Position numbers and translations under genes: made by a program. The notes beneath the pieces were generated by a model. That model was not told the origin of the DNA. It saw only the letters and a list, made by a program, of their open reading frames with translations, and made no database searches. From Actinomyces sp. oral taxon 414 (lineage in GTDB: Bacteria > Actinomycetota > Actinomycetes > Actinomycetales > Actinomycetaceae): a stretch of 64,000 bases of DNA. Of this stretch, positions 1 through 59,713 are shown piece by piece (position 1 is the stretch's first letter; every line of letters begins with the position of its first letter). The stretch lies in the NCBI RefSeq assembly GCF_001278845.1, contig NZ_CP012590.1:682001-746000 (forward strand), in the 5' to 3' direction.

Positions 1-432
1 GGCCTTCGCCCAGCCGTGCTCGTTCCTGAGCCACGAGCTTACGATGATGTGGCCGGCCAGGGCGTGCGGCATCTTGTGCCGTTCGGGTTTGAGGACCTCG
101 GACGGCTTTTGGTTCAGTCCCGCCTCCTTCATGCGGTCGTTCAGGTTCGAGACCTGGATGGAGAAGGCCGGGGTGCACTTGCCGATGTCGTGAACACTGG
201 CGATCCAGGCGGCGAGGAGGCGGAACTCGTCCGCCGGGGCCAGGCCCGACGTCGAGTCGGCGAACTCGCGCTCGATGAGGTCGCCGGTGGTGGGTGCCAG
301 CCAGGTTCGGGCGAGGTGCTCGGCCACGGCGGCGGCGTCGAGCAGGTGCAGCCACAGGGGGAGCCAGTGACGACTCTCAGGGTCGTAGCCGGACTTGGCC
401 CACACGGAGCGGGCGCGGGCTGACAGTGTCAC
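1..432 (-). CDS. cas3: CRISPR-associated helicase/nuclease Cas3, N-terminal HD part (runs off the window)
   Basis: Cas3 is the nuclease-helicase that Cascade recruits to degrade target DNA in type I CRISPR systems. Only the first ~144 residues are present; the reading frame is open to base 1. The start region reads TLSARARSVWAKSG, followed by WLPLWLHLLDAAAVAEHLA, which carries the first HD-domain histidine. Then come AAWIASVHDIGK, with the diagnostic His-Asp pair, and HKMPHALAGHIIVSSW with further metal-ligand histidines. The GTG at 432 is chosen because AAGGA lies 7 nt upstream; an in-frame ATG at 447 lacks a ribosome site. The gene reads leftwards, so the Cascade and cas1-cas2 genes should lie outside the window. 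It fits the type I-E repeat of the array starting 8.5 kb away. The helicase part cannot be seen. Confidence 0.9.
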   Translation of the reverse strand, partial: MTLSARARSVWAKSGYDPESRHWLPLWLHLLDAAAVAEHLARTWLAPTTGDLIEREFADSTSGLAPADEFRLLAAWIASVHDIGKCTPAFSIQVSNLNDRMKEAGLNQKPSEVLKPERHKMPHALAGHIIVSSWLRNEHGWAKA

Positions 433-604
433 AGGGAGGTCCTTCATCGGAGTGGGGGAGCCCAGGTTATTGCGGTGGGCGCGGCGCGGCGGGCCAGTTC
501 GCGGACCGTTACCGAATCGTTGCCCGGATGGGGGCGGGTGTGATCTGTGTGAAAGCCGGGACTGCGGGTGCGTCGGCTTGGGGCGGCGGGCGCCAGCAGG
601 TAGC

Positions 605-642
605 CTGGGTGTGGGCGCAGGTATGACTACGCCCACACCCAG
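605..642. terminator. Perfect 13-bp hairpin between the 47-aa gene and cas3
   Basis: CTGGGTGTGGGCG at 605-617 pairs perfectly with CGCCCACACCCAG at 630-642 across a 12-nt loop. It starts 15 nt past the stop of the small minus-strand gene and about 170 nt before cas3. It probably ends the small gene's transcript. There is no clear U-tract, so termination is an inference. The remaining 160 nt before cas3 holds no ORF I can support and no convincing promoter. Confidence 0.6.
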
Positions 643-656
643 ACACATGTCCCGCA

Positions 657-800
657 TCATCCGAGCATGGTGATCAGCGCATGGATGGTGGAGGCGACGG
701 CGGAGACGATGGCGGCCGTGTGCCGGAGGCACTCCGTGAGAAGGTGGATCCCGTCCAGGTCCGACCGTCGGCTCCCCTTGCGGGGCGTGTGTCTGTTCAT
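657..800 (-). CDS. Small uncharacterised 47-aa protein beside cas3
   Basis: I do not recognise this protein. It starts ATG at 800 behind a strong ribosome site (AAAGGAG, 5 nt before the start), by far the best in this stretch, so I take it as real. The N-terminal half is basic and polar (MNRHTPRKGSRRSDLDG). The C-terminal half is hydrophobic (AAIVSAVASTIHALITMLG) and could be one short membrane-associated helix. It sits between the fossil CRISPR repeats and cas3, reads in the same direction as cas3 and is followed by a 13-bp hairpin. A cas accessory role, a toxin-like peptide or a phage-derived peptide are all possible; nothing in the sequence decides. Confidence 0.6.
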   Translation of the reverse strand: MNRHTPRKGSRRSDLDGIHLLTECLRHTAAIVSAVASTIHALITMLG

Positions 801-887
801 ATCAACTCCTTTCTAACGTGTGGTGACTAGCTGTATTAGTCCCATAGAGCGGATGTTAGCATACTTCTCGGCTTCGGCTTGAGCTGG

Positions 888-965
888 AAGACCCTGCGTG
901 CTGTAGCGGGGATGACCCAGTGTGATGACTAGCTGTCGCGTATACCCCGCGCGAGCGGGGATCCG
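888..965 (+). repeat. Two degenerate type I-E CRISPR repeats of opposite polarity to the main array
   Basis: At 940-965 the sequence GTATACCCCGCGCGAGCGGGG continues with ATCC. This is the reverse-complement form of the main array repeat with one substitution and a 3-nt deletion near its end. At 888-917 a more decayed copy keeps AGCGGGGATGACCC. The interval between them is only 22 nt, shorter than a true spacer. The stretch GTGTGATGACTAGCTGT at 920-936 is nearly repeated at 818-834 (GTGTGGTGACTAGCTGT). I read this as a vestigial second array or leader end next to cas3. Confidence 0.55.
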
Positions 966-981
966 GGCTCGGGCTCAACGA

Positions 982-1020
982 TCGAGGGGGTCCGCCACAG
1001 AACGCGGCGGACCCCCTCGA
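982..1020. terminator. Perfect 15-bp hairpin
   Basis: The arms 982-996 (TCGAGGGGGTCCGCC) and 1006-1020 are perfectly complementary around a 9-nt loop. The hairpin lies between the CRISPR fossils and the glyA riboswitch. It could end a transcript arriving from either side. No U-tract follows, so function is inferred from structure only. Confidence 0.55.
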
Positions 1021-1124
1021 CTCGGTTGGCCGAGGCGGAGGCGGTGCTCGTAAGCGGCGTGTCGCGCAGGCGGGCGGGAGAGTCGTCGCGACGCGCCCCG
1101 ACGTCGGCGGCGCGGTAGCATGGG

Positions 1125-1232
1125 CGCGTCGTCGCGACTGGCGCAAAGGTGGTCACCACCGGGGAGCGGCGGCGCCGCGCCGGATCGCCCGGGGCGGCCA
1201 TCACGAACCTGGTCGCCCGCCTGGGCCGAGGT
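1125..1232 (+). promoter_or_regulatory. ZTP (pfl-type) riboswitch upstream of glyA-folD
   Basis: The stretch CGACTGGCGCAAAGGTGG at 1136-1153, then TCACCACCGGGGAGCG, and after a variable GC-rich stem CGCCCGCCTGGGC at 1214-1226, matches the conserved core of the pfl/ZTP riboswitch as I know it. That RNA senses the purine intermediate ZTP/ZMP, which builds up when 10-formyl-THF is short, and it controls one-carbon genes such as glyA, folD and purH. A TAGCAT -10 box at 1116-1121 would start the RNA just before it. The motif recognition comes from reading the sequence; no covariance search was run. Confidence 0.8.
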
Positions 1233-4860: not shown

Positions 4861-5787
4861 GTGCGCATCGTCCTCGCCCTGGGCGGCAACGCCCTCCTGC
4901 CCCGCGGGGCCACTCCGGACACCGCGATCCAGGTCGCCAAGGTGCGCCTGGCCGTGGAGGCCCTACGGCCGCTGGCCCTGGCGCACGAACTGGTCCTCAC
5001 CCACGGCAACGGACCCCAGGTGGGTCTGCTCGCCGCGGCCACGGCCGGCTCGGACCTGCCCGCCAACGTCTACCCGCTTGACACCCTCGTCGCCCAGACG
5101 CAGGGGATGATCGGCTTCTGGATCACCCAGGCCCTTACCGACGCCCTGCCCGGCAGGCCGGTGGCGGGACTGCTCACGCGCACCCTGGTCGATCCCGACG
5201 ACCCGGCCATGAGCCGGCCCACGAAATTCGTGGGCGCGGTGCTCAGCGAGCAGGAGGCCCAGCTGCTGGCCGCCGAGCGAGCCTGGACCATGGCGCGCGA
5301 CGGCGAGTACTGGCGGCGCGTGGTCCCCTCGCCGGCGCCCAGGAGCATCCTGGAGGCCGACGTCGTCGCCTCCCTGCTGGACCGGGGGACGATCGTGGTG
5401 TGCGCGGGCGGCGGCGGGGTCGCGGTGCGCACCTGGCAGGACGGCACGCACGAGGGCGTGGAGGCCGTGGTCGACAAGGACCTGGCCTCGGCGGTACTGG
5501 CGGAGCAGATCGGCGCGGACCTGCTCATCGTCCTCACCGACGTCGCCGGAGTGGTCGCGGATTACGGCACCCCGCAAGCGCGGCTGCTCGAGCGGGCCAC
5601 ACCGGCCCAACTGCGGGCGCTGGGCCTGCCGGCCGGGTCCATGGGGCCCAAGGCGGAGGCCTGCGCGAGCTTCGTGGAGCGCACCGGCGGGCGCGCGGTC
5701 ATCGGGGCGCTGGGCCAGGCCGCGGAGATCGTGGCCGGGTGCGCGGGCACGCAGGTGGTTCCCGATGACGACCAAGGCCGCGACTGA
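4861..5787 (+). CDS. arcC: Carbamate kinase
   Basis: Carbamate kinase makes ATP from carbamoyl phosphate + ADP, usually as the last step of the arginine deiminase pathway. The 308-residue product has LALGGNALLPRG, THGNGPQVGLL, TKFVGAVLS, VVDKDLASAVLAEQ, LTDVAGV and GSMGPKAEA, all typical of the amino-acid kinase fold of ArcC. The GTG at 4861 follows AGAGGAG; a TACTCT -10 box lies at 4811-4816. No arcA or arcB is visible, so carbamoyl phosphate must come from elsewhere in the genome or the gene stands alone. Confidence 0.93.
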   Translation: MRIVLALGGNALLPRGATPDTAIQVAKVRLAVEALRPLALAHELVLTHGNGPQVGLLAAATAGSDLPANVYPLDTLVAQTQGMIGFWITQALTDALPGRPVAGLLTRTLVDPDDPAMSRPTKFVGAVLSEQEAQLLAAERAWTMARDGEYWRRVVPSPAPRSILEADVVASLLDRGTIVVCAGGGGVAVRTWQDGTHEGVEAVVDKDLASAVLAEQIGADLLIVLTDVAGVVADYGTPQARLLERATPAQLRALGLPAGSMGPKAEACASFVERTGGRAVIGALGQAAEIVAGCAGTQVVPDDDQGRD

Positions 5788-5830
5788 GGCGGAACGGGGC
5801 GGATCGACACGGATCGGGACGGGAGCGGAT

Positions 5831-6481
5831 ATGGCCAGGCGGCCTGTTTTCACACCCCTGGGGACGAGGCCTTACGTCCGCGAGGTCAACACCGAGTTCG
5901 TCTTCCACCCGGGGTTCTCCCTCAAGCAGAAGCAGCGGTCCGTCGACAGCCTTCATCGTTCCTTCCTGGCCGCGTACCCGGGCGCGCGGATGCTGGAGGT
6001 CTCGGGCAGGTCCCCGCTCACCCTGGGAGTGGAGCTGAGCGCCTTCCGCCTCATGATCCGCCAGGGCGGTGCGGAGTACCCGGTCGAGTCGGCCTTCCAG
6101 GCCTCCAAGGTCTTCGCGGATGGAGGGCCGTTCACCGACCTGCTCGGAGCGAGTCCCCGCGACGCCAAGCGCGACCCGCGACTCCGGACGAGCGGCGAGC
6201 TGGTGGGATTCGAGTTCTTCTCGCGCGCCTTCCCTTTGGAGCCGCGGACCTTCTTCTACGACTGGTTATACGTGGGCGCCCTGGCGGGGCGTCCCGAACT
6301 AGTTGACGAGCTGGCGTCCTACACGGCCTTCACGGATATCGAGTTCAACCCGAAGCGGTCGATCAATTGCCAGGCGCGTTCGGTGTCCCTCTTCCAGGGG
6401 TTGCGGGCGGCCGGCGCCGTGGACCGGGCCCTGAAGTCGGCGGACGCCTTCCTCCGGGTGTGCTACGACTCCGGTCGTTGA
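5831..6481 (+). CDS. DarT1-associated NADAR-type antitoxin, without a visible toxin
   Basis: NADAR-domain proteins of this family remove the ADP-ribose that DarT1 toxins attach to DNA. The 216-residue product shows the family pattern: an N-terminal FTPLG...VREVNTEFVFHPGFSLKQKQRSV, then VESAFQASKVFADGGPFTDL, DAKRDPRLRTSGELVGFEFF, FPLEPRTFFYDWLYVGAL and FTDIEFNPKRSINCQARS. GGAGCGG lies 6 nt before the ATG at 5831; an earlier in-frame ATG at 5765 overlaps arcC. No DarT-like gene lies on either side. An IS insertion begins 145 nt downstream, so the partner may have been lost. Family assignment is by recognition of these motifs. Confidence 0.8.
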   Translation: MARRPVFTPLGTRPYVREVNTEFVFHPGFSLKQKQRSVDSLHRSFLAAYPGARMLEVSGRSPLTLGVELSAFRLMIRQGGAEYPVESAFQASKVFADGGPFTDLLGASPRDAKRDPRLRTSGELVGFEFFSRAFPLEPRTFFYDWLYVGALAGRPELVDELASYTAFTDIEFNPKRSINCQARSVSLFQGLRAAGAVDRALKSADAFLRVCYDSGR

Positions 6482-6625: not shown

Positions 6626-7426
6626 TGAGCCTTTCTCACCAGAACTGGCGGTTCGGGGGTGGGGATCGGCGTGGTGGTGCGGGAAGGATCGGGCGGGGGG
6701 TGGGGGTGGTGCGCGCGGGGACCGGTCCGGGATAGTGTGTTCTAACCACACGAATCACTACCAGGGGGTCCCCGCGCGGGTGTCTTATCCTGCCACTGGC
6801 GATGTTCCCGAGTCCATCGCCCACGCCATCTGCCTGTGGTTGGCGGCCCACCGCAGGGCGCACGGGCGCGAGGCCGTGGCAGAGGGCGGCCACCTGCCGG
6901 GCCCCGGGCGGTGCTGGTGCTGGGGTGGATGGTGGCGGGCACGGCCCTGACCACTCTGGCCCGCGACTCGAGGGTGAGCCGGGCCACGGCCTACAGGTAT
7001 CTGCATGAGGCCCTGGGGGTGATCGCGGACCGGGCCCCGGACCTTCCCGAGGTCCTTCAGCGGTTGCGCGAGCGGAAAGAGCCGTTCGTCTGTCTGGACG
7101 GGACCCTGATCCGCACCGACCGGGTGGCCCCGGCGCAACCCGGACACGGGCCACCACCTGTGGTATTCAGGTCTTGGCCGGGGCGCTGGGCGGCAACGTG
7201 CAGGTGGTGATGGATTTTCGCTGGGTTCCCGGTGTACACGGGTCCGGTGGAGCCCGGCTCCACCCACGACCTGACCGCGGCCAGGCTGCATGTGCTGCCG
7301 GCCCTGTACCGGTCGGCCTGTAGCAAATACGAAACAAGATAAACCGCTGTTAATTCGGCTCACCTGTGGAGGTGGACGACCCCCGAGGGGCGCGCATTCC
7401 GGGTGGATTGGAATCGGATTGCGCGT

Positions 7427-7432
7427 TATAAT
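7427..7432 (+). promoter_or_regulatory. TATAAT -10 box of the IS630 transposase
   Basis: A perfect TATAAT ends 6 nt before the ATG at 7439, predicting a leaderless transcript as for many host genes in this window. I see no good -35 hexamer at 16-18 nt. Confidence 0.6.
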
Positions 7433-7438
7433 AGTGGC

Positions 7439-8596
7439 ATGAGCGCGATTCAGCTGACCGATGACGAGCTGCGCATCCTCCAGGACCACAGGAAGGGTGC
7501 GCCGCACAAGCTCATGAGGCTCAAGTCCGAGGCGATCATTATGCTGTCGATGGGGGCGAGCAAGAAGTTCGCCGCCGAGTTCGTGGAGCGATCCATCGAA
7601 ACGATCAAGAGATGGGTCAGGCAGTGGAAAGAGTTCGGACTGGCATCCATCCGCACCGGACACGCCGGGAACGACAACGCCTCGAAACTCACTCGGGAGC
7701 AGGCGGAGGAGACCAAGGAAGCGCTTTCCCGGCCCCCGTCGGAGCAGGGCATCCCCGCCGACTTCTGGAATGTTCCCCGCCTGGCCGGTTGGATGCACGA
7801 GCATTTCAACGTCGAGTACAAGTCCAGATCCTCCTACCACCGCCGATTCCACATGGCGGAGCTGTCCTTCCACAAGCCCCTGGGCGTGGACCGGCACCGC
7901 GCCCCGGAGGCGGAGATCGAGGCCCGCATGGAGCAGATCGACGCCGAGATCGCCAGGATCACGGGGCAGAAGCGGGACGGGAAGAAGGAGGACGGGCAGG
8001 AGGAGGACCAAAGACGGCGGGAGGCCGAGACGAACGACAAGAAGACGAACGACGAGAAGGCGAACGACGAGAAGAAGGTCCGTGAGGATGTCATAGTGGT
8101 GTCCGCCGACGAGGTGGGCATCGAACACGAGGCAGTTATTAGGCGGGCCTGGTGCAAAAGGTGCGCCAAGACCAAGATCAGGGTCGACCGGGAACGGCAG
8201 TCCCAGAAGTACATCGGGTTCCTCCACGAATCGGACGGGAGGGTGGATCTCATGCGACTGGATCGGTGCAATACCGACAACGTCTTGAAGGCCCTGACCG
8301 AACTCACCCTGAAGTACCCGGACAAGACGATCGTCGTGGTGTGGGACAACGCCGGCTGGCACAAGTCGAGCACATTGCTCGCGCAGACGGGGGAGGGAAA
8401 GCCCCTGGAACGCGTCCAGTTCATCAACCTGCCGCCCTACAGCCCCGATAAGAACCCCATAGAGAAAGTCTGGAACGAGGGCAAGAACTCCATCAGCAAC
8501 AGGCAGAGGGCCTTCTTCGAGGACACCTGCGAAGCATTCGAATCCTTCGTCACCTCAAAGAAATTCAAGTATCGACTCCTGAAGTCATCTCGTTGA
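7439..8596 (+). CDS. IS630-family transposase
   Basis: A 385-residue DDE transposase that cuts and pastes its element into TA sites. The N-terminus has the family's double helix-turn-helix (FVERSIETIKRWVRQWKEF). The catalytic part has SADEVGIEHE (first Asp, about residue 224), VVVWDNAGWHKS (second Asp) and NLPPYSPDKNPIEKVWNEGKN (Glu). Residues ~176-216 form a very charged, Asp/Glu/Lys/Arg-rich insert ahead of the catalytic core. An earlier ATG at 7403 is possible, but the start at 7439 sits correctly behind TATAAT. The frame is intact, so the element may be active. Confidence 0.92.
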   Translation: MSAIQLTDDELRILQDHRKGAPHKLMRLKSEAIIMLSMGASKKFAAEFVERSIETIKRWVRQWKEFGLASIRTGHAGNDNASKLTREQAEETKEALSRPPSEQGIPADFWNVPRLAGWMHEHFNVEYKSRSSYHRRFHMAELSFHKPLGVDRHRAPEAEIEARMEQIDAEIARITGQKRDGKKEDGQEEDQRRREAETNDKKTNDEKANDEKKVREDVIVVSADEVGIEHEAVIRRAWCKRCAKTKIRVDRERQSQKYIGFLHESDGRVDLMRLDRCNTDNVLKALTELTLKYPDKTIVVVWDNAGWHKSSTLLAQTGEGKPLERVQFINLPPYSPDKNPIEKVWNEGKNSISNRQRAFFEDTCEAFESFVTSKKFKYRLLKSSR

Positions 8597-8925
8597 ATTT
8601 TTGCTATGGTTGGGGATGCCGGTCCTGGCGGACAAGGGGTACCAGGGCGCGGGGATCGGTGTGCCGGCCCCCACGAAGAACCCCTGCCCGACCCCCGACG
8701 AGGAGGCCTGCAACAGCCTGCTGTCCACCCTGCGGGCCCCCGCCAAGAGAGAGGGCGCCATGTTCAAGCACTTCAGGGCCCTGCAACGAGTCTCCCCAGG
8801 CCCCGCCACCATCACCACGATCATGGCCGCCGCCCTCGTCATCATCACCCTCTGGCACGAATCCTGACACGATTCTTAACACGAATCCTGGTGAGAAAGG
8901 CTCATTATACCATTTGCCGTCTTGG

Positions 8926-9626
8926 GAGCAATCCCCGCTCGCGCAGGGTTTACAGAGCCGCCACTGCACCGGCTCCAAGGACGACAGGATCATCCCCGCT
9001 CGCGCGGGGTTTACACGACGCCCCGGCGATCGCGCCGGGGCTGTGCAGGATCATCCCCGCTCGCGCGGGGTTTACGGGTCGGGTACGGTCCCGATCCGGG
9101 CGGCCGCGGGATCATCCCCGCTCGCGCGGGGTTTACGACTTCTTCTTCAAGTCGACGCCCAACTACTACGGATCATCCCCGCTCGCGCGGGGTTTACCGG
9201 TGGACGTGGACCATAGGAGGGTGATGAGATGGATCATCCCCGCTCGCGCGGGGTTTACTCGATGCGGTGTCCCGCCTTCACCCCGGAGGCGGGATCATCC
9301 CCGCTCGCGCGGGGTTTACGTGTTGCCCCAGATCCGCTTGACGGCCCCGTCCGGATCATCCCCGCTCGCGCGGGGTTTACGGCTTGGACGTACGGTCCAG
9401 CAGCACCGTGCCATGGATCATCCCCGCTCGCGCGGGGTTTACTCGGTGAGGTTGGGGAAGACCAGGTGCGACTTGGGATCATCCCCGCTCGCGCGGGGTT
9501 TACCGGGTGTACACGCCCAGGAAGGAACCGGTACGGGGATCATCCCCGCTCGCGCGGGGTTTACTCAATGGCCGCCGTCAGAGCTTCGCGGACCTGGTGG
9601 ATCATCCCCGCTCGCGCGGGGTTTAC
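8926..9626 (-). CRISPR. Type I-E CRISPR array, leader-distal segment (12 repeats)
   Basis: Twelve 28-nt repeats start at 8926, 8987, 9048, 9109, 9170, 9231, 9292, 9353, 9415, 9476, 9537 and 9599, separated by 33-34-nt unique spacers. The plus-strand repeat begins GGATCATC, has the palindrome CCCCGCTCGCGCGGGG and ends TTTAC, so crRNA sense is the minus strand. The first copy (8926-8953) is degenerate, marking the leader-distal end. The last spacer (9627-9660) is cut off by the IS256 insertion from the next repeat at 11112. Confidence 0.98.
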
Positions 9627-9660
9627 CCGACCTGTGGGGCCCCGACAAGCCCGCGATCCT

Positions 9661-11103
9661 GGTCAAGTCTTTTGGTGTGGTGTTCTTTCGGTCAGGTGGT
9701 GATGGGGGGCAGGGCGGCGCGGCCGCCGTCGCCGCCGGTGTTGTCGGTGTGGAGCATGTCGGTCAGGCGCTGCAGGGAGGTCTGGGAGAGGTATCGGCGT
9801 TCGCCGTACTGCCACTCCTCGTTGCTCTGGCAGGGCGGATCCGATCAGGGGGCGTGCGGAGTCGCTGTCGGGGAAGACCTGGACGACGTCTGCGCGGCGC
9901 TTGATCTCGCGGTTGAGGCGCTCGATGGGGTTGTTGGACCAGATCTTGGTCCAGTGCTCGCGGGGGAAGGCCGCGAACGCGGTCAGGTCCGGCTCGGCGT
10001 CCTTCAACATCTGAGCGATCTCGGGGAAGGCGTCCCTCAGGGTGTCGATGACGTGCTGGTACTGGGCCATGACGGCCTCGGGCGTGGTCTGGGCGAAGAT
10101 GGTCGAGACGAGCGCGTTGACGGGCTTGGATCGGGCCGAGCCGAGCCTGGAGGTGATGGTGCGGGCGAAGTGGACGCGGCAGCGCTGCCAGGCGGCTCCG
10201 GGAAGGATCGCCCTGACGGCGGCGCGGATGCCGGCGTGGGCGTCACTGGTGACCAGGACCACGCCCTCGGGGTCGTGGGGTGAGGGGACCTTGAGGCCGC
10301 GCTCTCGCAGGGACCGCAGGAAGGAGGTCCAGAAATCGGTGGTCTCGGCGTCGCCCAGGGCCATGCCCAGGATCTCCCGGCGCCCTTGGGCCGACACGCC
10401 GGTGGCCACCACCAGCGCCCGGGAGACCACCCGGTGCCCCGCCCTCACGTCCAGGTACGTGGCGTCCACGAACAAGTAGGGGAACCAGGTGTGGTCCAGG
10501 CGGCGGGCGAGGAACTCGTGCACGCCCTCGTCGATGTCCTTGCAGATCCTTGAGACCGTGGAGCGGCTGATCCCGGACTCGTTGCCCAGGGCCTTGACCA
10601 GGTCGTCGACCTTGCGCGTGGACACGCCCTCGATCCACGCGGAGCAGATCACCGCGTACAGGGCCTTGTCCACGCGCCTGCGCGGGTGGAGCAGGGAGGG
10701 GAAGAACGACCCGGTGCGAAGCTTGGGGATGGCCAGTTCGACCTCCCCGGCGGTGGTGGCCACCGTCTTGGGCCTCGTGCCGTTGCGGCGGTTGGTGCGC
10801 TGCGGGGTGCGCTCGTAGCGCTGCGCGCCGATCACGGCGGCGGCCTCGGCGTCGACCAGGTCCTGCAGCCCGGCCTGGAGCAGGCGGCGGAAGACGTCAT
10901 CGTGAGCCAGATCGGGGTCGGCCAGGACTTCCCGGATCAGCGTGGACACGGCAGACTGGTTCGTGGCGGGCATCGCGGGTGCACTCCTTGTGAATCTTGG
11001 TCGAGGAACAGGACTCCCACGATGCCCGCCGCCCTCCCGGGCCGGCGGGCCCCTCGACGCCGAGGGCCCCGCGGGAATTGCCACCACACTAAGAGACGCA
11101 CCC
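9661..11103 (-). mobile_element. IS256-family insertion sequence inside a CRISPR spacer
   Basis: The element is 1443 bp, flanked by the 8-bp target duplication GCGATCCT (9653-9660 and 11104-11111). Its ends are imperfect 22-bp inverted repeats sharing GTGTGGTG (left GGTCAAGTCTTTTGGTGTGG; right, reversed, GGGTGCGTCTCTTAGTGTGG). It interrupts the spacer that begins at 9627, immediately before the next repeat. An uninterrupted copy of the same spacer exists at 11323-11356, which confirms the junction. Confidence 0.92.
9663..10973 (-). CDS. IS256-family (mutator-type) transposase with frameshifted C-terminus
   Basis: The product starts MPATNQSAVSTLIREVL. It contains NRRNGTRPKTVATTAGEVELAIPKLR, SRSTVSRICKDIDEGV, FVDATYLDVRAGHRVV (first Asp), LVTSDAHAGIRAAV (second Asp), WQRCRVHFARTI and WSNNPIERLNREIKRRADVVQVFPDSDSA (Glu). 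The whole DDE core is therefore present. Near 9833 the frame shifts. The expected end EWQYGERRYLSQTSLQRLTD, stopping at 9692, is read out of frame and replaced by ~50 Arg/His-rich residues ending at 9663. Activity is uncertain because the catalytic part is complete. Confidence 0.9.
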   Translation of the reverse strand: MPATNQSAVSTLIREVLADPDLAHDDVFRRLLQAGLQDLVDAEAAAVIGAQRYERTPQRTNRRNGTRPKTVATTAGEVELAIPKLRTGSFFPSLLHPRRRVDKALYAVICSAWIEGVSTRKVDDLVKALGNESGISRSTVSRICKDIDEGVHEFLARRLDHTWFPYLFVDATYLDVRAGHRVVSRALVVATGVSAQGRREILGMALGDAETTDFWTSFLRSLRERGLKVPSPHDPEGVVLVTSDAHAGIRAAVRAILPGAAWQRCRVHFARTITSRLGSARSKPVNALVSTIFAQTTPEAVMAQYQHVIDTLRDAFPEIAQMLKDAEPDLTAFAAFPREHWTKIWSNNPIERLNREIKRRADVVQVFPDSDSARPLIGSALPEQRGVAVRRTPIPLPDLPAAPDRHAPHRQHRRRRRPRRPAPHHHLTERTPHQKT

Positions 11104-11111
11104 GCGATCCT

Positions 11112-14100
11112 GGATCATCCCCGCTCGCGCGGGGTTTACCGACGGTATCCTCTCCGTCCTCGGTCCGGCCGAGGATCATCCCCGCTCGCGCGGGGTTTAC
11201 GCGATCGTCCTGGCCGGCGGCGCCGTCCTGGCGGGATCATCCCCGCTCGCGCGGGGTTTACCCACGACCGCACCGCACCACGACGACGTCCACGGGATCA
11301 TCCCCGCTCGCGCGGGGTTTACCCGACCTGTGGGGCCCCGACAAGCCCGCGATCCTGGATCATCCCCGCTCGCGCGGGGTTTACCGACGGTATCCTCTCC
11401 GTCCTCGGTCCGGCCGAGGATCATCCCCGCTCGCGCGGGGTTTACAGCGGATCATCGCTGAGATGCAGGCGCAGGGCAGGATCATCCCCGCTCGCGCGGG
11501 GTTTACACGTAGTCGATCAGGGCGGCCAGGCCGGCCCGGGGATCATCCCCGCTCGCGCGGGGTTTACGCCTTGCTGAGCTTCCGGAAACTGACTGCGGTG
11601 GGGATCATCCCCGCTCGCGCGGGGTTTACAGAAGAACTTGTCCGATCTCGCGCCCGGGGCGCGGATCATCCCCGCTCGCGCGGGGTTTACACCTGCACCT
11701 CGACGGCCGCCGCATTGATCGGCGGATCATCCCCGCTCGCGCGGGGTTTACCTGATCACGTCCAGCACCGCCTGCAGGCGGTCCGGATCATCCCCGCTCG
11801 CGCGGGGTTTACGACGCGGGCTGCTCGTAGAGCAGATCCTCCCGGGGATCATCCCCGCTCGCGCGGGGTTTACCGGCCGAGGAGCCCGCGCCGGACCATC
11901 GGCGGAGGATCATCCCCGCTCGCGCGGGGTTTACCCACTATGGCCCTGGCCTGGGCCGCCCGCATCCTGGATCATCCCCGCTCGCGCGGGGTTTACCCCG
12001 GATATTTGTCCGAAGGGGCGGAGGACGAGGGATCATCCCCGCTCGCGCGGGGTTTACGGGCGGACAGACCCGGGCGGGGCTCCTCGATCAGGATCATCCC
12101 CGCTCGCGCGGGGTTTACTGCTGGCTTGCGAGGAAACGATCGGCGTCGTGAGGATCATCTCCGCTCGCGCGGGGTTTACACAAGGAATGGGAATGTCACG
12201 CAGAAGGAAGAGGGATCATCCCCGCTCGCGCGGGGTTTACGCGCCACCATGAGCGGCGCCGAATTCACCGCCCGGATCATCCCCGCTCGCGCGGGGTTTA
12301 CTGCGCGGCCTTGAGCGCCTCGGCATTCTTCGCCGGATCATCCCCGCTCGCGCGGGGTTTACGAGGGAAGTGCGCGGGGATGATAAGTGCGGTTAGGATC
12401 ATCCCCGCTCGCGCGGGGTTTACGCCCACGCGGGCATGGTGCCCGTGGCCGCCGGGGGATCATCCCCGCTCGCGCGGGGTTTACGTCGCCAAGGAGGCGG
12501 CAACGTCGACGTCGACCAGGATCATCCCCGCTCGCGCGGGGTTTACTACAAAACCGAGATGCGCGCCACGACCACATTCGGATCATCCCCGCTCGCGCGG
12601 GGTTTACACAGCCCGGCGCCGGCTACAGGCCCGGCGACAAGGATCATCCCCGCTCGCGCGGGGTTTACCCGGGGTTTTATGCGAATGACGAGGTCATCGC
12701 GGGATCATCCCCGCTCGCGCGGGGTTTACCTACGCTGAGTGTGGCCGAGTAGTGAGGGAGGTGGGATCATCCCCGCTCGCGCGGGGTTTACAATACGGTG
12801 CCCGCCTGCGACTCAACGGAATTGGGATCATCCCCGCTCGCGCGGGGTTTACCTACGCTGAGTGTGGCCGAGTAGTGAGGGAGGTGGGATCATCCCCGCT
12901 CGCGCGGGGTTTACTTTCCCTTGACCTAGCCCCGCCCACGGGGTACCGGGATCATCCCCGCTCGCGCGGGGTTTACACCGTGCGGACGCCCCGTCGAGGA
13001 TCATTCAGAGGATCATCCCCGCTCGCGCGGGGTTTACTACGGGGAGTGCTGCGAGTGCTGCGGAACCGAGGGATCATCCCCGCTCGCGCGGGGTTTACAA
13101 CCACCAGCGCTTCCACAGCGGCTTCTTCGCCGGATCATCCCCGCTCGCGCGGGGTTTACAACGCCCTCTTCAGTGGCAGACGCATCGGAGCCGGATCATC
13201 CCCGCTCGCGCGGGGTTTACGCCGCGAAAGTCGGCATCCCCGCGGGATTATAAGGATCATCCCCGCTCGCGCGGGGTTTACCGCGTCGAGCACGTGCGGG
13301 CAGGTGCGGGCAGGGGATCATCCCCGCTCGCGCGGGGTTTACGAGACCCACACGACCGGCCCTTTCAGCGACCAAGGATCATCCCCGCTCGCGCGGGGTT
13401 TACGGTGGCGAGTCGTTGGGCGGCGGCTTTGTAGGCGGATCATCCCCGCTCGCGCGGGGTTTACTCTGGCGCCGGAAGGAGCACATCGGCAATATGGAGG
13501 ATCATCCCCGCTCGCGCGGGGTTTACGTCGCGTCGGCCTGGAAATGCGCCGTGATGACCGGATCATCCCCGCTCGCGCGGGGTTTACAAAACACGGGCCG
13601 TCAATTCCGAGGCGCCCCAGGGATCATCCCCGCTCGCGCGGGGTTTACCGGCGCCGCCTAAGGCGCCGGTTCTCGGTGCGCGGATCATCCCCGCTCGCGC
13701 GGGGTTTACACAGTCCTGTCTGAGGCTCAGCGGCTTGCCGGCGGATCATCCCCGCTCGCGCGGGGTTTACGGTACTGTGGAGGGGCAGGAGCCCGACGTG
13801 CAGGGATCATCCCCGCTCGCGCGGGGTTTACCATGGTCGCGGATACTCTCATCGAGACGCGGGCGGATCATCCCCGCTCGCGCGGGGTTTACTCGATCGC
13901 GTATCAGTATCAGGCTGCGGATTGGGGATCATCCCCGCTCGCGCGGGGTTTACAAGTTCGCGTGCTACCCGTATGCTGCGATCGAAGGATCATCCCCGCT
14001 CGCGCGGGGTTTACCCATGAACGTCAATTCTGGCGAGGAGAAGCACGGGATCATCCCCGCTCGCGCGGGGTTTACGCCCCACTGCGAGCGGGCCAGCGTG

Positions 14101-17100
14101 GGCGGCGTGGATCATCCCCGCTCGCGCGGGGTTTACTTTTGTGGTGGGGGCGGCCGCCCGGAGAGCTGCGGATCATCCCCGCTCGCGCGGGGTTTACTCA
14201 AGCCGAGTCTTTCGGACGCCGTCGAGCGCGGGATCATCCCCGCTCGCGCGGGGTTTACTTAAATGGCGTAATATGCCGCCCGGGATTGACGGGATCATCC
14301 CCGCTCGCGCGGGGTTTACCGGCTCGCGGGCGCAGCGGCGTCGCGCTCGACGGGATCATCCCCGCTCGCGCGGGGTTTACCCGAAATTGCGCCACGTGTC
14401 CCCGCCGTAGATGGGATCATCCCCGCTCGCGCGGGGTTTACGCGAGTACGCGAAAACACTGCCCAATGCGGATAGGATCATCCCCGCTCGCGCGGGGTTT
14501 ACGCGGCGGTCCGCAGGCGGGTTCCTTCTCCCCCGGGATCATCCCCGCTCGCGCGGGGTTTACTCCTGGTCGCCTGCTGGGGCAAGGACGCGGCCGGGAT
14601 CATCCCCGCTCGCGCGGGGTTTACTCAGCAGCTGCTGCTCGGCGTCGGAGAAGCTCAGGATCATCCCCGCTCGCGCGGGGTTTACCGTCGCCGCCCTCGA
14701 CCTGGACACCCGGCTCCTGGATCATCCCCGCTCGCGCGGGGTTTACCTCGCGGGCGACGAACTGTCCGAGCGCCCGCCGTGGATCATCCCCGCTCGCGCG
14801 GGATTTACTCCCCATGATCCGAAATCTGGAGACCAACGGCGGGATCATCCCCGCTCGCGCGGGGTTTACAACTCGCTCCGGAAACCAGCAGCGCGATATG
14901 AAGGATCATCCCCGCTCGCGCGGGGTTTACCTACTGCGTGGTGACCGGCGAGGTCGACCACACGGGATCATCCCCGCTCGCGCGGGGTTTACGGGGCGAT
15001 CTCCGGCTTTCCGGCGAGACCCCTCAGGATCATCCCCGCTCGCGCGGGGTTTACTTTGCGTGAGGTGAATGCTGAGTGCGGGTATCAGGGATCATCCCCG
15101 CTCGCGCGGGGTTTACGGGTGGGTGGCGGACCTGGACCTGACGGCCCCGGGATCATCCCCGCTCGCGCGGGGTTTACGCGGACTCGTAGGGCGTCGCCCA
15201 GAGCGGGAGAGGATCATCCCCGCTCGCGCGGGGTTTACTCGCCCGGGCGCGATTATCTTGAGGGCGAGATCGGATCATCCCCGCTCGCGCGGGGTTTACC
15301 CAGTCCGACGCCACCGGCGATAACGCGACCGCGGATCATCCCCGCTCGCGCGGGGTTTACCCAGTCCGACGCCACCGGCGATAACGCGACCGCGGATCAT
15401 CCCCGCTCGCGCGGGGTTTACGCTCGGTCGACATCGTCCAGGATGGAGCGGAGGGGATCATCCCCGCTCGCGCGGGGTTTACTAATGAACCCCAAGACCT
15501 ACATCCCCATGCCGAGGATCATCCCCGCTCGCGCGGGGTTTACGGGCCGGTGATCCGCAGGGCGGCGTCGATGAGGGGATCATCCCCGCTCGCGCGGGGT
15601 TTACTCAAGGCGCAGGTCCGGATGGTCTCGCCACGGCGGATCATCCCCGCTCGCGCGGGGTTTACTCGACGTCGCCGAAGCGCGTACTGCTAGCGCGCGG
15701 ATCATCCCCGCTCGCGCGGGGTTTACGACGTCGAGCGCTACGCCGCCGCGATCCGCCGCCGGATCATCCCCGCTCGCGCGGGGTTTACCCGGCCATGTCC
15801 TCATCGCCACACCGGAGGGCAGGATCATCCCCGCTCGCGCGGGGTTTACCCGCTGCCCGCGAGCGCCGCGCCCCCATGGTGGGGATCATCCCCGCTCGCG
15901 CGGGGTTTACGCTCTCACCAGGGAGGTGTGCCGCTCCCAGGCCGGATCATCCCCGCTCGCGCGGGGTTTACCGGCCCGCGAGATCCTTACTCGGGCGGAG
16001 GGCCGGATCATCCCCGCTCGCGCGGGGTTTACCACAGCGCATCATCGCCATCACAGTGCCCGGACGGATCATCCCCGCTCGCGCGGGGTTTACGGTGTAC
16101 TGAGTGTTGCGCAGTGGGCCATGATGGGATCATCCCCGCTCGCGCGGGGTTTACATGGTGCCCGAGTCGGCGATTTTCAAGGACGTTGGATCATCCCCGC
16201 TCGCGCGGGGTTTACCCATGCGGGTCAAGGGAGAGAACAAGATCGTCTGGATCATCCCCGCTCGCGCGGGGTTTACCTCTTGGTTCAGTCGGTGGGTCGG
16301 TGGGTGACGGGATCATCCCCGCTCGCGCGGGGTTTACACGTTCTTCTCGAATTTCAAGGCCCACTGCCTGTGGATCATCCCCGCTCGCGCGGGGTTTACC
16401 CTCGGCGTCGCGGGCGCGCAGCCAGGCGGCCAGGATCATCCCCGCTCGCGCGGGGTTTACGCCCAGAGCGGCAGATTCATGAGCACACTGTCAGGATCAT
16501 CCCCGCTCGCGCGGGGTTTACGGCGGCGTGGGCGAGCAGGGCGTTCAGGGTGGGGGATCATCCCCACTCGCGCGGGGTTTACGTTGCGCAAGGCCATCAC
16601 CATGTGTATGGTCCGGGATCATCCCCGCTCGCGCGGGGTTTACTTCAGGGTCAAGTGCCCTGATATGCAGTCGCTGGGATCATCCCCGCTCGCGCGGGGT
16701 TTACATGATGGTGGTCACGCCGGTGACGGGCCGCCCGGGATCATCCCCGCTCGCGCGGGGTTTACCCGGCACCGCCGGCAGCGGCAAGAGCGTGGGCGGG
16801 ATCATCCCCGCTCGCGCGGGGTTTACCCGGCACCGCCGGCAGCGGCAAGAGCGTGGGCGGGATCATCCCCGCTCGCGCGGGGTTTACCACGCTTGATGGC
16901 CGGGTAGACGTTGGCGGGGGGATCATCCCCGCTCGCGCGGGGTTTACGTCGCCGTTGGCGGCGCGCGCCCCCGGCCGCGCGGATCATCCCCGCTCGCGCG
17001 GGGTTTACGCTTCCGGGATATCATCGCCGATGGGCACAATAGGATCATCCCCGCTCGCGCGGGGTTTACGCGGCTGTGGTCCTGGCGGTTTGCTGCGCCC

Positions 17101-20100
17101 TGGGATCATCCCCGCTCGCGCGGGGTTTACCCGGCGCCTACCGGTACCGGGTCACCGTCTCCAGGATCATCCCCGCTCGCGCGGGGTTTACTGACGTTGG
17201 TGTTCATGGTGTCCTCCGTGGACAGGATCATCCCCGCTCGCGCGGGGTTTACGGTCCAGTGGTAGCGCCCATTGGAGGTGAGCCACGGATCATCCCCGCT
17301 CGCGCGGGGTTTACCCCTCGCCGCCCGATACTCCCGCGACGGCGGGGGGATCATCCCCGCTCGCGCGGGGTTTACACGGCGCACCGGACGCGGACGGCGG
17401 ATGAGACCGGATCATCCCCGCTCGCGCGGGGTTTACAGAATTATTACCCCGTGACTGTGAATGAGGATAGGATCATCCCCGCTCGCGCGGGGTTTACGCA
17501 CCGAGGACCGGACTCTTCGGGGCCGTCGGGGGATCATCCCCGCTCGCGCGGGGTTTACACTCTCTACGGCGTCATGGAGGCTATCCACGAGGGATCATCC
17601 CCGCTCGCGCGGGGTTTACTCCACCTCGAAGTTCTCTGAGGCCTTCGCGAGGGGATCATCCCCGCTCGCGCGGGGTTTACGTTTTTCACTGACCAGACAG
17701 AGCCGTCGCAGAAGGATCATCCCCGCTCGCGCGGGGTTTACCAGGTATTATTCCGGGGCCGCCGATGGTGGGCGGGATCATCCCCGCTCGCGCGGGGTTT
17801 ACGAGTGCTTGCCCATTATTTAAGGAATATTCCTTGGATCATCCCCGCTCGCGCGGGGTTTACCTCGCAGGATGAGCGGGTGAGCATGATGAACGCGGAT
17901 CATCCCCGCTCGCGCGGGGTTTACGCCGACTCATACGGTGTGGCCCACAGCGGCAGAGGATCATCCCCGCTCGCGCGGGGTTTACGCCGTGTTTTATTTT
18001 GACGCGGATTATGACCGTGGATCATCCCCGCTCGCGCGGGGTTTACCCATCCGACCTCCAACGATTCCTCGAAGGACCCGGATCATCCCCGCTCGCGCGG
18101 GGTTTACCAACGGTCTGGCCGTGTTTTATTTTGACGCGGAGGATCATCCCCGCTCGCGCGGGGTTTACACCTCTCCCGCCCTGAAATCGCGCGAGACGCC
18201 CGGATCATCCCCGCTCGCGCGGGGTTTACATTCAGATTGCGGTGCAGACCGTGGTCGCCTGGGGATCATCCCCGCTCGCGCGGGGTTTACGGAATACTAT
18301 GAGAAGGACGAGTACGACGACGGGGATCATCCCCGCTCGCGCGGGGTTTACGTGGTGGCGATGTTGGCGGCGGCCCAGGCGCGCGGATCATCCCCGCTCG
18401 CGCGGGGTTTACCGGACAGGGCGAGCGCCCCGCCCCCGTCGGGACGGATCATCCCCGCTCGCGCGGGGTTTACGCGATCTTCAAGCGCGGCAATATCGTG
18501 CACGGGGGATCATCCCCGCTCGCGCGGGGTTTACATCCAAACCGTGGTGATGGTGGTGGTCGCCTGGGGATCATCCCCGCTCGCGCGGGGTTTACGTCGC
18601 CGGTGTAGGTGGCGTCGCCGGTATCGAAGGATCATCCCCGCTCGCGCGGGGTTTACCCCAGGCCCCGCGGCACTCCCTTCAGGGCGTGGGGATCATCCCC
18701 GCTCGCGCGGGGTTTACCGCCCCATCCGGTAGGCGGTCACCGCCCTCGTAGGATCATCCCCGCTCGCGCGGGGTTTACGCTTGAGTTTCCATTCGCATCC
18801 GGTGAAAAGGCGGATCATCCCCGCTCGCGCGGGGTTTACCGTCAGAATCGATTCTGTGCACGTTCTGACCCAGGATCATCCCCGCTCGCGCGGGGTTTAC
18901 TGGTTGTGTTCTCATCACCTCTGTGGTGATGGCGGATCATCCCCGCTCGCGCGGGGTTTACTACCGCTCCGGACACGCTCTCCCTGGGCATCGGGGATCA
19001 TCCCCGCTCGCGCGGGGTTTACGTCGGCACCTAAGATTTATCCGCATACTCGGCCGGGATCATCCCCGCTCGCGCGGGGTTTACCTATGGCCACGATCGG
19101 CCAGATACCGCAGATCGGGATCATCCCCGCTCGCGCGGGGTTTACCCTGCGATGATGGAGGTCATGTGTGACTGGGAGGGATCATCCCCGCTCGCGCGGG
19201 GTTTACGCTACCTCCTCAACGGACATTCCTGCAAGCGAAGGATCATCCCCGCTCGCGCGGGGTTTACTCCCGCCGGTCGTCAATGACGGCGGGGCGGCGC
19301 GGATCATCCCCGCTCGCGCGGGGTTTACCGGGAAGGCCTCCAGGAGGGCGTCTCGCGCGATGGATCATCCCCGCTCGCGCGGGGTTTACAAGCGCATCTC
19401 GGCGGGGATCGCCGCCACCCGAGGATCATCCCCGCTCGCGCGGGGTTTACCAGATGGGGATGCAGTCGCGTCCGGATATGGTCGGATCATCCCCGCTCGC
19501 GCGGGGTTTACATCGTGCGTGGAATTGGCGCTGCCGGTATCGAAGGATCATCCCCGCTCGCGCGGGGTTTACACGTTGTACAGAGTCGTGCTGGAAACTC
19601 GCTGGGGATCATCCCCGCTCGCGCGGGGTTTACTGCCGATGGTGGAACGGCGGCGGCCACATAGAAGGATCATCCCCGCTCGCGCGGGGTTTACCATCAT
19701 TGCCGAGGCGGGAGGTGATGTGGACGAGGATCATCCCCGCTCGCGCGGGGTTTACAGGGATGAGGATGGTGTGATCTCGGATCTCCCGGGATCATCCCCG
19801 CTCGCGCGGGGTTTACGTCACATCTGCCCCATTCGTCACACCAGTAACAGGATCATCCCCGCTCGCGCGGGGTTTACTTTCAGGATCGAACGGGTTTTGG
19901 GGCTATCGAAGGATCATCCCCGCTCGCGCGGGGTTTACCAGTTTCCATTGGTCGGCGGCCAGGATAAAGGCGGATCATCCCCGCTCGCGCGGGGTTTACA
20001 TCTCGGATCTCCCGTACGGCGATCCTCGCGACGGATCATCCCCGCTCGCGCGGGGTTTACGTCAGTAAATCGGGCTCCAATTTAATTCTACACGGATCAT

Positions 20101-22380
20101 CCCCGCTCGCGCGGGGTTTACCTCGCGTACTCATGCTCGCCAACGCCGTGAGCAGGATCATCCCCGCTCGCGCGGGGTTTACGCCGACGTCGCCCACGAG
20201 TACCCGCGCCACAATGGATCATCCCCGCTCGCGCGGGGTTTACCCTACACCGGCGACCTCCTACCCGCACTCGCAGGGATCATCCCCGCTCGCGCGGGGT
20301 TTACTCTGGCTGACCACGGCCACAGGGTGATGCTGCGGGATCATCCCCGCTCGCGCGGGGTTTACATGACTGTGGCGCAGATGGCGAAGGCTTTCGAGGG
20401 ATCATCCCCGCTCGCGCGGGGTTTACCTGATAGCACCGCACCGCTTATCCACCTTCACGGGATCATCCCCGCTCGCGCGGGGTTTACGCTCATACATCCT
20501 GAGGGATGAGGATGGGTGTAGGATCATCCCCGCTCGCGCGGGGTTTACCCTCAAATAATGGGCAAGCATTCTCTTGACAAAGGATCATCCCCGCTCGCGC
20601 GGGGTTTACAGTACGTCGCGCCCGGGACCACGCAGATCACGCGGATCATCCCCGCTCGCGCGGGGTTTACCCAGCCCCACACCCACAGGCGAGCACTGGC
20701 AAAGGATCATCCCCGCTCGCGCGGGGTTTACCACTGTGGCCGAGGGATTGGACATGGGGTCGGAGGATCATCCCCGCTCGCGCGGGGTTTACCCCGCGAT
20801 GATGATCAAGACGGGACGGATGAGCGGATCATCCCCGCTCGCGCGGGGTTTACGCCATCAACAACGCTGACAACGGCGTCCTCATCGGATCATCCCCGCT
20901 CGCGCGGGGTTTACCTGGGCGTCGGCCGGCGGCAGCGGGAGCGCGGGGGATCATCCCCGCTCGCGCGGGGTTTACATCCTTACCTCCTGCTCCGTTCGGT
21001 TCTTCCTCGGATCATCCCCGCTCGCGCGGGGTTTACGAGATGGATCTGCTGCGGGGAGTGATGAGCTTCGGATCATCCCCGCTCGCGCGGGGTTTACGCG
21101 ACTGGCTGGCCCGCGCCGAGGCCCTGCGCGGGATCATCCCCGCTCGCGCGGGGTTTACTATCAGCGCACGATATCACCTTCGAGCGCCCACGGATCATCC
21201 CCGCTCGCGCGGGGTTTACGGCGTCGGTCACGCACCCAAATTAACCGATCGGGGATCATCCCCGCTCGCGCGGGGTTTACGTCATGAAGAATGCCATTGA
21301 GAAGGGCGAGGAGGGATCATCCCCGCTCGCGCGGGGTTTACGGGTCGCCCCGGACTCCCAGCGCGCCACCGTGAGGATCATCCCCGCTCGCGCGGGGTTT
21401 ACCCATCTGACCTTCAGCGATTCCTCGAGGGAGACGGATCATCCCCGCTCGCGCGGGGTTTACCTTTCTGTGCGGTTTCAGTCGAGTCCGGCGAGGGGAT
21501 CATCCCCGCTCGCGCGGGGTTTACATGAGGGCGGCGATGCGCGCCCGGTCGGCGCGCGGATCATCCCCGCTCGCGCGGGGTTTACGGCGATCCGGTCGAG
21601 TCCGCCACGGTGACGGGCGGATCATCCCCGCTCGCGCGGGGTTTACGTCCCTCCGCCCATCGCCCCCGCTAGGACCACGGGGATCATCCCCGCTCGCGCG
21701 GGGTTTACGGGGCGGTCCCTTACCGGTCCGGAGCGGCCTGGGGATCATCCCCGCTCGCGCGGGGTTTACCCGCGGGACTAGTTTACCGCCCCAGTGTTGA
21801 TCGGATCATCCCCGCTCGCGCGGGGTTTACCTGGGAATCGGACAATGGACGCAGGGCCGCGCAGGATCATCCCCGCTCGCGCGGGGTTTACTGGGTTTGG
21901 TCGGACGGCTGAGGAGGTGTTGTCGGATCATCCCCGCTCGCGCGGGGTTTACCCTTGAGCTCCTCGAGAAGGTGCGCGCGGCGGTGGATCATCCCCGCTC
22001 GCGCGGGGTTTACACCGAGTGCGGGCACAAGTACGGCATCACGGGGGGATCATCCCCGCTCGCGCGGGGTTTACAAGATTTCATTAACGATTTCAAGGCG
22101 AAGATCATGGATCATCCCCGCTCGCGCGGGGTTTACATATTGATTTCGCGGGAGACCTCGTGCATTGGAGGATCATCCCCGCTCGCGCGGGGTTTACTCG
22201 ATCTCATCGAGGTGCTGCCCGCCGAGATGGGGATCATCCCCGCTCGCGCGGGGTTTACACTCACTCCACCTGGGGCCTTACGACTCTGAGCGGATCATCC
22301 CCGCTCGCGCGGGGTTTACGTCACGTCGACCCGACCGGCGGCGATCACGGGGGGATCATCCCCGCTCGCGCGGGGTTTAC
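11112..22380 (-). CRISPR. Type I-E CRISPR array, main segment (185 repeats, 184 spacers)
   Basis: Counting each repeat start gives 185 copies of the 28-nt repeat at a 60-62-nt period, with spacers of 32-34 nt. Only three single-base variants were noticed: near 12152 (C to T), 14782 (G to A) and 16555 (G to A). With the 12 repeats left of the IS256 element the locus holds 197 repeats and 196 spacers. Several spacers are duplicated or overlap (see findings). Repeat polarity and the decayed left end place the leader and newest spacers at the right, about 22380. The RNA reads leftwards. No cas gene adjoins the leader end; the only cas gene seen is cas3 at the left edge. Confidence 0.98.
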
Positions 22381-22569
22381 ACTTGCGGATCCTTGGAATC
22401 CCAACGAACCCATACTCTACCAGACCCCGGTTGCCTTCACTGCCGACCTAGGGCCCGCTCGTCGGGTCGTGGTAGCGCCGCCTCGCCAGGAGTGACATAC
22501 ATCACTACTGGACATGGCTCGACCGCCACAGCCTCAGCCCCGGCGCCCGGACGGGGGAACGGCGTCCGG
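22381..22569 (-). promoter_or_regulatory. Presumed CRISPR leader
   Basis: This 189-nt non-coding interval lies between the last perfect repeat and the ABC permease gene and is somewhat richer in A/T than the flanks near 22490-22510. By array polarity it should carry the crRNA promoter and the integration site for new spacers. On the minus strand a TAGAGT that could be a -10 box lies about 40 nt before the first repeat. I see no convincing -35. The assignment is by position. Confidence 0.45.
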
Positions 22570-59348: not shown

Positions 59349-59713
59349 GACCGCTCCTCGGCGTCGCCCCCGCCGGGCGCGGCGGCGGAGGCGAGGGTGC
59401 GGGCGGCGACGAGGACGGCGGTCAGCTCGTCGGGGTGTTCCAAGGCGCTCACGCTGGCGCGGCCGTGGGTGTGGGTGGAGATGAGCCCGGCGGCGCGCAG
59501 GATCGCCAGGTGCTGGGAGACGGTCGACTGTGCCAGGCCGAGGTGCTCGGCGAGCTCGCCGACGCGGTGCTCGCCGCCGCGCAGGTGGGACAGGATCGCC
59601 AGGCGGGTGGGGTCGGCCAGGACGGACAGGACGGCGGCCAGGGCGGCGGCGTCGTGAACGGCGGAGGTGTCGTCGGCGCGGTCAGTGGGCAGGATCTCAT
59701 GAACAATCGCCAT
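59345..59713 (-). CDS. ArsR/SmtB-family metal-responsive repressor
   Basis: A 122-residue winged-helix protein with LADPTRLAILSHL, the recognition helix region GELAEHLGLAQSTVSQHLAILRAAGLI and the wing THTHGRASVSAL. The classic cysteine metal site of ArsR/CadC is missing; His and acidic residues near the ends could form a Zn site. It probably represses its own operon through the inverted repeat in its promoter. Start ATG 59713 is 6 nt after TATCAT. Confidence 0.92.
   Translation of the reverse strand: MAIVHEILPTDRADDTSAVHDAAALAAVLSVLADPTRLAILSHLRGGEHRVGELAEHLGLAQSTVSQHLAILRAAGLISTHTHGRASVSALEHPDELTAVLVAARTLASAAAPGGGDAEERS

Follow-up and report, generated by a model that had tools for sequence, protein, structure and literature searches.

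A likely peptide CreTA module upstream of cas3, strongly supported by comparison among relatives, and a natural rewriting of CRISPR repeats are the novel features of the type I-E locus of Actinomyces sp. oral taxon 414. Array B is long, but its kind is known, and long arrays are common in this genus. The region analyzed, here called the window, is a 64,000-nt stretch (C1:682001-746000) of a genome that consists of one contig of 3,836,419 bp. We hold with considerable confidence that the locus comprises a single cas operon, two arrays whose repeats are copied from the leader end, an insertion of the IS256 type, and a proposed CreTA-like module.

Array B was delimited by scanning the window for its 28-nt repeat unit (GGATCATCCCCGCTCGCGCGGGGTTTAC on the plus strand), with up to 7 substitutions allowed. 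The array is read on the minus strand, as its leader, the form of its repeat, and the cas operon indicate. Its parts are as follows.

8926 to 22380, minus strand: CRISPR array B, type I-E, 197 repeats and 196 spacers, leader on the right
8926 to 9626, minus strand: trailer block of 12 repeats, ending in a degenerate terminal repeat (8926-8953)
11112 to 22380, minus strand: leader-side block of 185 repeats, from the repeat scan
22381 to 22470, minus strand: leader, agreeing with the leader end of array A at 78 of 90 nt

The scan recovered 197 plus-strand copies between 8926 and 22380, split 12 + 185. This is the count given by a first-pass annotation of this DNA, and rescanning did not lower it. 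The near-invariance of the repeats that was claimed there also stands: 193 copies are exact, three have one mismatch (12152, 14781, and 16555), and the degenerate end repeat at 8926 has five. Three mononucleotide shuffles of the window yielded no copies at ≤5 mismatches. Steps from repeat to repeat are 61 nt (174 cases), 62 nt (20), and 60 nt (1), apart from one of 1,513 nt that leads from repeat 12 to repeat 13. The 195 intact spacers accordingly measure 33 nt (174), 34 nt (20), and 32 nt (1), and 191 of them are distinct; the total is 196 because the interval between the two blocks carries one more spacer, split by an insertion. The stretch occupies 13.46 kb, IS256-type element included. Near-identical repeats with a 6-bp hairpin, 33-nt spacers, and a leader are all features of a type I-E array. 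Transcription of crRNAs would start from the leader at 22381 and follow the minus strand.

The cas genes are on the minus strand between the two arrays in the order cas3-cse1-cse2-cas7-cas5-cas6-cas1-cas2. The operon (C1 673.1-682.4 kb) adjoins array A and is about 8.5 kb from array B; the second array and the complete operon are found 8.5-18 kb to the left of array B. No cas gene is complete within the window, which includes only the beginning of the first.

1 to 447, minus strand: start of cas3, which begins at 447 and leaves the window at its left end; the operon runs on to the left

Matches above the NCBIfam cut-offs were obtained for cse1, cse2, cas7, cas6, cas1, cas2, and both cas3 domains. 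No NCBIfam match was found for cas5, which was assigned from its position and its homologues. All eight genes of a type I-E operon (cas3, cse1, cse2, cas7, cas5, cas6e, cas1e, and cas2e) are thus present, and this complete operon next door confirms the earlier assignment of array B to type I-E.

Across the whole genome the repeat has 256 copies at ≤3 mismatches, all in a single orientation: the 196 in the window and 60 that fit array A (C1 667.6-672.7 kb), which starts 56 nt past cas2. The counterpart of the array B leader at array A includes about 34 nt of the cas2 end, and we infer that array B originated as a copy of the leader end of an array next to cas2. The nearest relative is G005, in which the flanks of both arrays were found beside repeats, although its contigs break inside both arrays; arrays A and B are therefore probably both older than the split from G005.

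The locus shares with E. coli type I-E its gene set and order, a 28-nt repeat with a 6-bp hairpin, 33-nt spacers, and an array placed after cas2. It differs from the E. coli system in having a second, much longer array 8.5 kb past cas3 and rewritten repeats in array A. The possible PAM here is (A/G)A, whereas that of E. coli type I-E is AAG. The system is of the E. coli type, in connection with which the available part of PMC12231136 names Streptomyces avermitilis. A winged-helix protein encoded at 59345-59713 (minus strand) has PADLOC matches to Csa3/CasR and adjoins a cation efflux gene; a role in metal sensing is more likely for it than one in CRISPR regulation.

Upstream of cas3, within the window, is a CreTA-like module (657-967). 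The lead to it came from the array-repeat scan, in which a reverse-strand repeat-like match with 6 mismatches appeared at 940. The module and the hairpins beside it are arranged as follows.

891 to 967, plus strand: mini-CRISPR, candidate creA (repeat 891-918, 21-nt spacer 919-939, repeat 940-967)
815 to 834, plus strand: PAM AAC (815-817) and target of the mini-spacer (818-834), ending 14 nt before the start codon of the ORF
657 to 800, minus strand: 47-codon ORF, candidate CreT-like peptide toxin; hydrophobic C-terminal stretch, ribosome site matching at 5 of 6 bases
982 to 1020, plus strand: strong hairpin past the mini-CRISPR, a possible terminator without a T run
604 to 642, minus strand: strong hairpin past the small ORF and before cas3, a possible terminator without a T run

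A consensus scan of 400-1200 found neither a consensus sigma-70 promoter nor a T-run terminator, and an Rfam scan found nothing at the module. The one Rfam match elsewhere is a borderline ZMP/ZTP riboswitch (1124-1202, plus strand; 39.2 bits, cut-off 39) that precedes a serine hydroxymethyltransferase gene. At 5765-6481 (plus strand) there is a DarT1-associated NADAR antitoxin gene (PF22397, E 1.1e-82) for which PADLOC gave no match; no DarT1 partner was found among the scanned neighbor ORFs, and this antitoxin is possibly an orphan.

These elements suggest a small hydrophobic peptide that is held off by a CRISPR-like guide, that is, a likely peptide CreTA. The mini-CRISPR RNA would guide Cascade to the short, partly matching, PAM-flanked site before the small-peptide gene, Cascade bound there would repress that gene, and loss of Cascade would release the peptide. 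The repeats, the likeness of the leaders, the operon, the insertion, and the guide-target match with its co-variation among relatives are seen in the sequences themselves, and we infer expression, crRNA processing, repression, and toxicity. The closest match to the module is the type I-E CreTA of Citrobacter rodentium, in which the toxin is a 96-bp ORF that needs translation (PMC12055562); in the CreTA of haloarchaea, according to the available text of PMC8501985, the toxin is an RNA. Both the Citrobacter module and the present one are next to cas3 and consist of a small ORF preceded by a crRNA-like gene that points the other way and partly matches a PAM-flanked site. The Citrobacter module is located between cas3 and casA, whereas the present one is upstream of cas3. 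Toxicity has been shown for the Citrobacter peptide; the candidate toxin here is likened to it by architecture. A literature search, for which most subscription papers were out of reach, turned up no CreTA described from Actinomyces or actinobacteria, and the word "toxin" is absent from the accessible portion of a 2025 review on actinomycete CRISPR-Cas (PMC12231136).

The module was compared with the operons of 26 relatives, each with all eight genes, making 27 with this genome. In 11 of the 27, a spacer-like stretch with a degenerate repeat on either side is present upstream of cas3, the stem being paired in one repeat or both; none was seen in the other 16. The repeat-to-repeat distance comes to 49-50 nt in ten of the 11 and to 61 nt in L078. 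For L011, L061, L075, and L065 the stem scan identified the second repeat only, and the first was placed at a fixed offset of 49 nt; the first repeat of L065 was also seen in a separate scan, and the stem of L011 in a fold prediction. Weak stem-like matches lying off the modules in L068, L070, L076, L077, L079, L080, and L085 were rejected as unlike the repeat, and two stray matches (L064 and L077) in the search for repeat-like ends in the other 16 operons were set aside. Across the family, 5 of 213 genomes contain the commonest form of the pattern; they are all from this genus, and in each it is at these loci.

In 10 of the 11 operons the mini-spacer partly matches a same-strand, PAM-flanked site between the mini-CRISPR and cas3, as judged from sequence and co-variation. 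The exception is L085, in which the mini-CRISPR is present and neither target nor small ORF was found. When each spacer was shuffled 300 times, the fraction of shuffles that reached the observed match was 0 at four loci, 0.003-0.007 at five, and 0.03 at one; L065 has an equal match on the opposite strand. All ten targets have AA at positions -3 and -2, although the PAM played no part in the choice of target and the frequency of AA in these regions is 0.025. If the second nucleotide of the mini-spacer is taken as guide position 1, all 10 pairs match at positions 1-5. Matches are found at position 6 in 2, positions 7-10 in 9-10, position 11 in 6, position 12 in 5, position 13 in all 10, and position 18 in 2. 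Type I-E Cascade skips every sixth base, and the pattern is suggestive of a fit to that skipped base.

The seeds vary among species (GTGTG, ATGTA, GTGCA, GTATG, and ACGTC), and guide and target change together. When guides and targets were re-paired among species, the observed total of matches was reached in none of 20,000 permutations. Non-cognate pairs reached 13 of 17 matches in 6 of 88 cases, the highest value being 15. The independent events are fewer than ten, because several of the loci look closely related (L011/L061 and L063/L068).

Small ORFs were accepted if they were ≤800 nt from cas3, had 15-120 codons and a ribosome site in which 5 or all 6 bases agreed; a hydrophobic stretch was defined as a mean Kyte-Doolittle value ≥1.6 over 17 residues, a threshold chosen after the data had been seen. 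With this post hoc threshold, a small hydrophobic ORF is present in 8 of the 11 operons with a mini-CRISPR and in 0 of the 16 without one (Fisher p 7e-5). L061 has an evident orthologue of the small ORF with a weaker ribosome site, and L078 has a target and no clear small ORF. The eight peptides are 27-47 residues long and differ in sequence, and each has its hydrophobic stretch near the C-terminus. CreTA-bearing operons were not found to be associated with longer arrays (median 55 repeats in 11 genomes versus 46.5 in 16, p = 0.23), a comparison in which many of the relatives' assemblies break inside arrays.

The main rival of the CreTA reading is CreR. Under this alternative, which we consider rather unlikely, the mini-CRISPR is an autoregulator that represses the cas operon and the small ORF is merely a leader peptide. 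The available text of PMC12737573 describes CreR as common in type I systems and as acting on cas promoters without a toxin. The target is upstream of cas3 and would belong to one transcription unit with it if the intervening hairpin fails to terminate. Inspection by reading found a long hairpin between ORF and cas3 in 6 of 9 operons and no strong hairpin in the other 3; the former argues against CreR, the latter for it. The mini-CRISPR of L085, close to cas3 and lacking the small ORF, also speaks for CreR; the association of small hydrophobic ORFs with the mini-CRISPR (8 of 11 versus 0 of 16) speaks against it. The CreTA-like module and the CreR/CrePA systems have in common crRNA-like guides that repress, or here would repress, a chromosomal gene, and CreP is usually a KilA-N protein, whereas the candidate here is a short hydrophobic peptide (PMC12737573, in the part available).

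Array B had been called exceptionally long, which overstates the case within the genus. Among 226 published I-E systems the mean is 30 spacers, the median 19, and the third quartile 37 (PMC5575924), which bears out the statement that most type I-E arrays are far shorter. The apparent I-E maximum in the same source, from a column without a heading, is 239 spacers, and its geometric I-E parameter of 0.034 gives a probability of 0.001 for at least 196 spacers. The available part of PMC8047081 reports 587 spacers in one array of Haliangium ochraceum, which, like array B, is well over 100 spacers long and is about three times longer. Among 48 relatives, however, 30 carry one or more repeats of the array B type, the total reaches 100 or more in 8, and a single array in G033 (L098, G033:C1:3066000-3082500) has 216. 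A lone perfect array repeat was observed outside arrays in G005 (L089, C13, at about 2845), between two similar short G+C-rich stretches.

The uniformity of the repeats had been taken as a sign of recent or heavy acquisition, a view that the relatives do not support: 129 of 129 repeats are uniform in the fetched array of L071 and 113 of 114 in that of L064. Uniformity is instead expected if each acquisition copies the leader-end repeat. The G033 array changes its repeat loop in a polar manner, with one loop in 162 leader-side repeats and another in the next 45, as copying from the leader end would leave it; it is an independent natural case of a repeat variant that spread through copying. It is very improbable that array B became uniform through homogenization (gene conversion or unequal crossing-over) or that its length is an assembly expansion. 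Four recombination-like spacer duplications in the array (B91/B92, B115/B116, B156/B158, and the block B180,B181/B184,B185) point in that direction, but wholesale expansion would not yield 191 distinct spacers among 195 intact ones, and both the equally uniform arrays of the relatives and the polar change in G033 fit copying from the leader end.

Array A, outside the window, has a second repeat type. The five leader-end repeats of that array (C1:672752-673023) are GTAAACCCCGCGCGGGCGCGATTCCCCG, and the older ones are GTAAACCCCGCGCGAGCGGGGATGATCC. The two types are alike in their first 14 nt and differ at 8 of the last 14. The old type is at the leader in nine relatives and is therefore probably ancestral; the new type was found in none of the 48 relatives at ≤3 mismatches. 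The spacer at the junction of the two types is 40 nt long instead of the usual 33. The predicted hairpin of the new repeat is weaker (-5.2 versus -13.5 kcal/mol), so Cas6e may or may not process it. Spacer A1, which follows a rewritten repeat, and B146 have a 14-mer in common, a hint that spacers from the usual targets were acquired next to rewritten repeats.

We tentatively propose, as a possibility short of an even chance, that one aberrant event fused a 14-nt half repeat to a 54-nt block of non-repeat DNA and that the product was then copied as a new repeat. A 28-nt ruler measured from the leader would copy the half repeat and the first 14 foreign nt at each later acquisition; subtracting the 14 copied nt from the 54-nt block leaves a spacer of exactly 40 nt. 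Rulers in type I-E repeats have been reported by others (PMC6895254, in the part available). A literature search found no papers on such two-repeat arrays. No second place matching the rewritten half was found in this genome or the 48 relatives (≤3 mismatches over 33 nt). Import of the new type by recombination with the array of another strain is unlikely. The shared first 14 nt and the leader could have acted as a crossover point, but none of the 48 relatives has the new repeat at ≤3 mismatches. The part scanned in the public collections, the 18-20-nt junction between the new half and the 40-nt spacer, was found in no viral contig and has one exact 20-nt match among genomes, in an environmental Gemmatimonadetes MAG contig. 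If the fusion did occur, repeat hairpins and crRNA handles of two kinds would coexist under one Cas6e and one Cascade, and nature can re-invent CRISPR repeats from foreign DNA.

The 1,485 nt between the two repeat blocks of array B encode a transposase.

9661 to 11100, minus strand: IS256-family insertion within a spacer, ends set by eye against the intact duplicate spacer
9663 to 11087, minus strand: IS256-family transposase (PF00872, E 2.4e-115; NF033543)

The direct repeat CCCGCGATCCT flanks the insertion at 9650-9660 and 11101-11111, and an intact duplicate of the split spacer is present four spacers leaderward, inside a duplicated stretch. The insertion therefore severs the trailer block of 12 repeats from the leader. 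In array A, a repeat is interrupted by a related element (89.5% identity over 1,464 bp). Directly before the trailer end of array B, 6629-8888 appears by eye to be one insertion element with GGTGAGAAAGG-like ends that was split by an IS630-family element (transposase 7403-8596); its outer fragments gave no family match.

Array B had also been described as a rich record of phages. The spacer search against phage sequences that had been proposed alongside was run on this array and gave nothing convincing in 50,697 records, and the few matches obtained in relatives are diverged, so that the description could not be substantiated. Megablast of the whole array, the search applied to the 12-repeat trailer block, returned no matches. 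Sensitive blastn of 11112-22380 returned nothing beyond one weak Microbacterium phage type (three records, E = 0.06 over 50 nt), which was judged to be chance. Of array A, the first two spacers were queried against the phage records; their matches were weak (E 0.3-4) and were disregarded. Four degenerate patterns made from similar spacers matched no viral contigs.

A genome-wide search of the 48 relatives was confined to 91 spacers, all from the 196 of array B (array A has 66), and scored 6 candidate places per genome; protospacers are under-counted because of this partial spacer set and the 6 places. The 91 spacers pointed to four places in three relatives. All 262 spacers, compared with the surroundings of these places, gave 13 distinct sites at ≤8 mismatches; a control with one shuffle per spacer and strand reached 8 mismatches in a single case each for L092 and L094 and in none for L093. 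The two nucleotides 5' of these diverged sites are GA or AA in 8 and CT, CC, GC, CG, or AG in the other five, and the best site (2 mismatches) is flanked by CT. L093 looks like a prophage from its gene content, 3 of 6 tested ORFs matching exonuclease, DNA methyltransferase, and RusA families; its RusA-like gene is struck by B84, B90, and A66, and its exonuclease gene by B93. In L092 one of four tested ORFs gave a match (FtsK-like).

Ten non-identical spacer pairs share a 14-mer, four of them between A and B, and the two arrays therefore seem to sample related elements. The spacers B70/B72 and B39/B43 (within 11140-22380) overlap by 15-23 nt; adjacent sites of one element were thus sampled repeatedly, as primed adaptation would do. 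Only one of the 262 spacers (A26) recurs among 1,284 spacers from the fetched stretches of relatives, with its match in G005, which supports high spacer turnover.

The locus matters for its CreTA-like guide-target pairs and for the half-rewritten repeat in array A. The latter is a natural case for asking whether a ruler or the sequence sets the 3' half of a repeat, and for Cas6 compatibility. The guide-target pairs come from ten species and amount to a natural experiment on the binding requirements of type I-E Cascade, in which the AA PAM and positions 1-5 and 7-10 are kept and position 6 is free. If the module is a peptide CreTA in this genus, then loss of the immune system can itself harm the cell.
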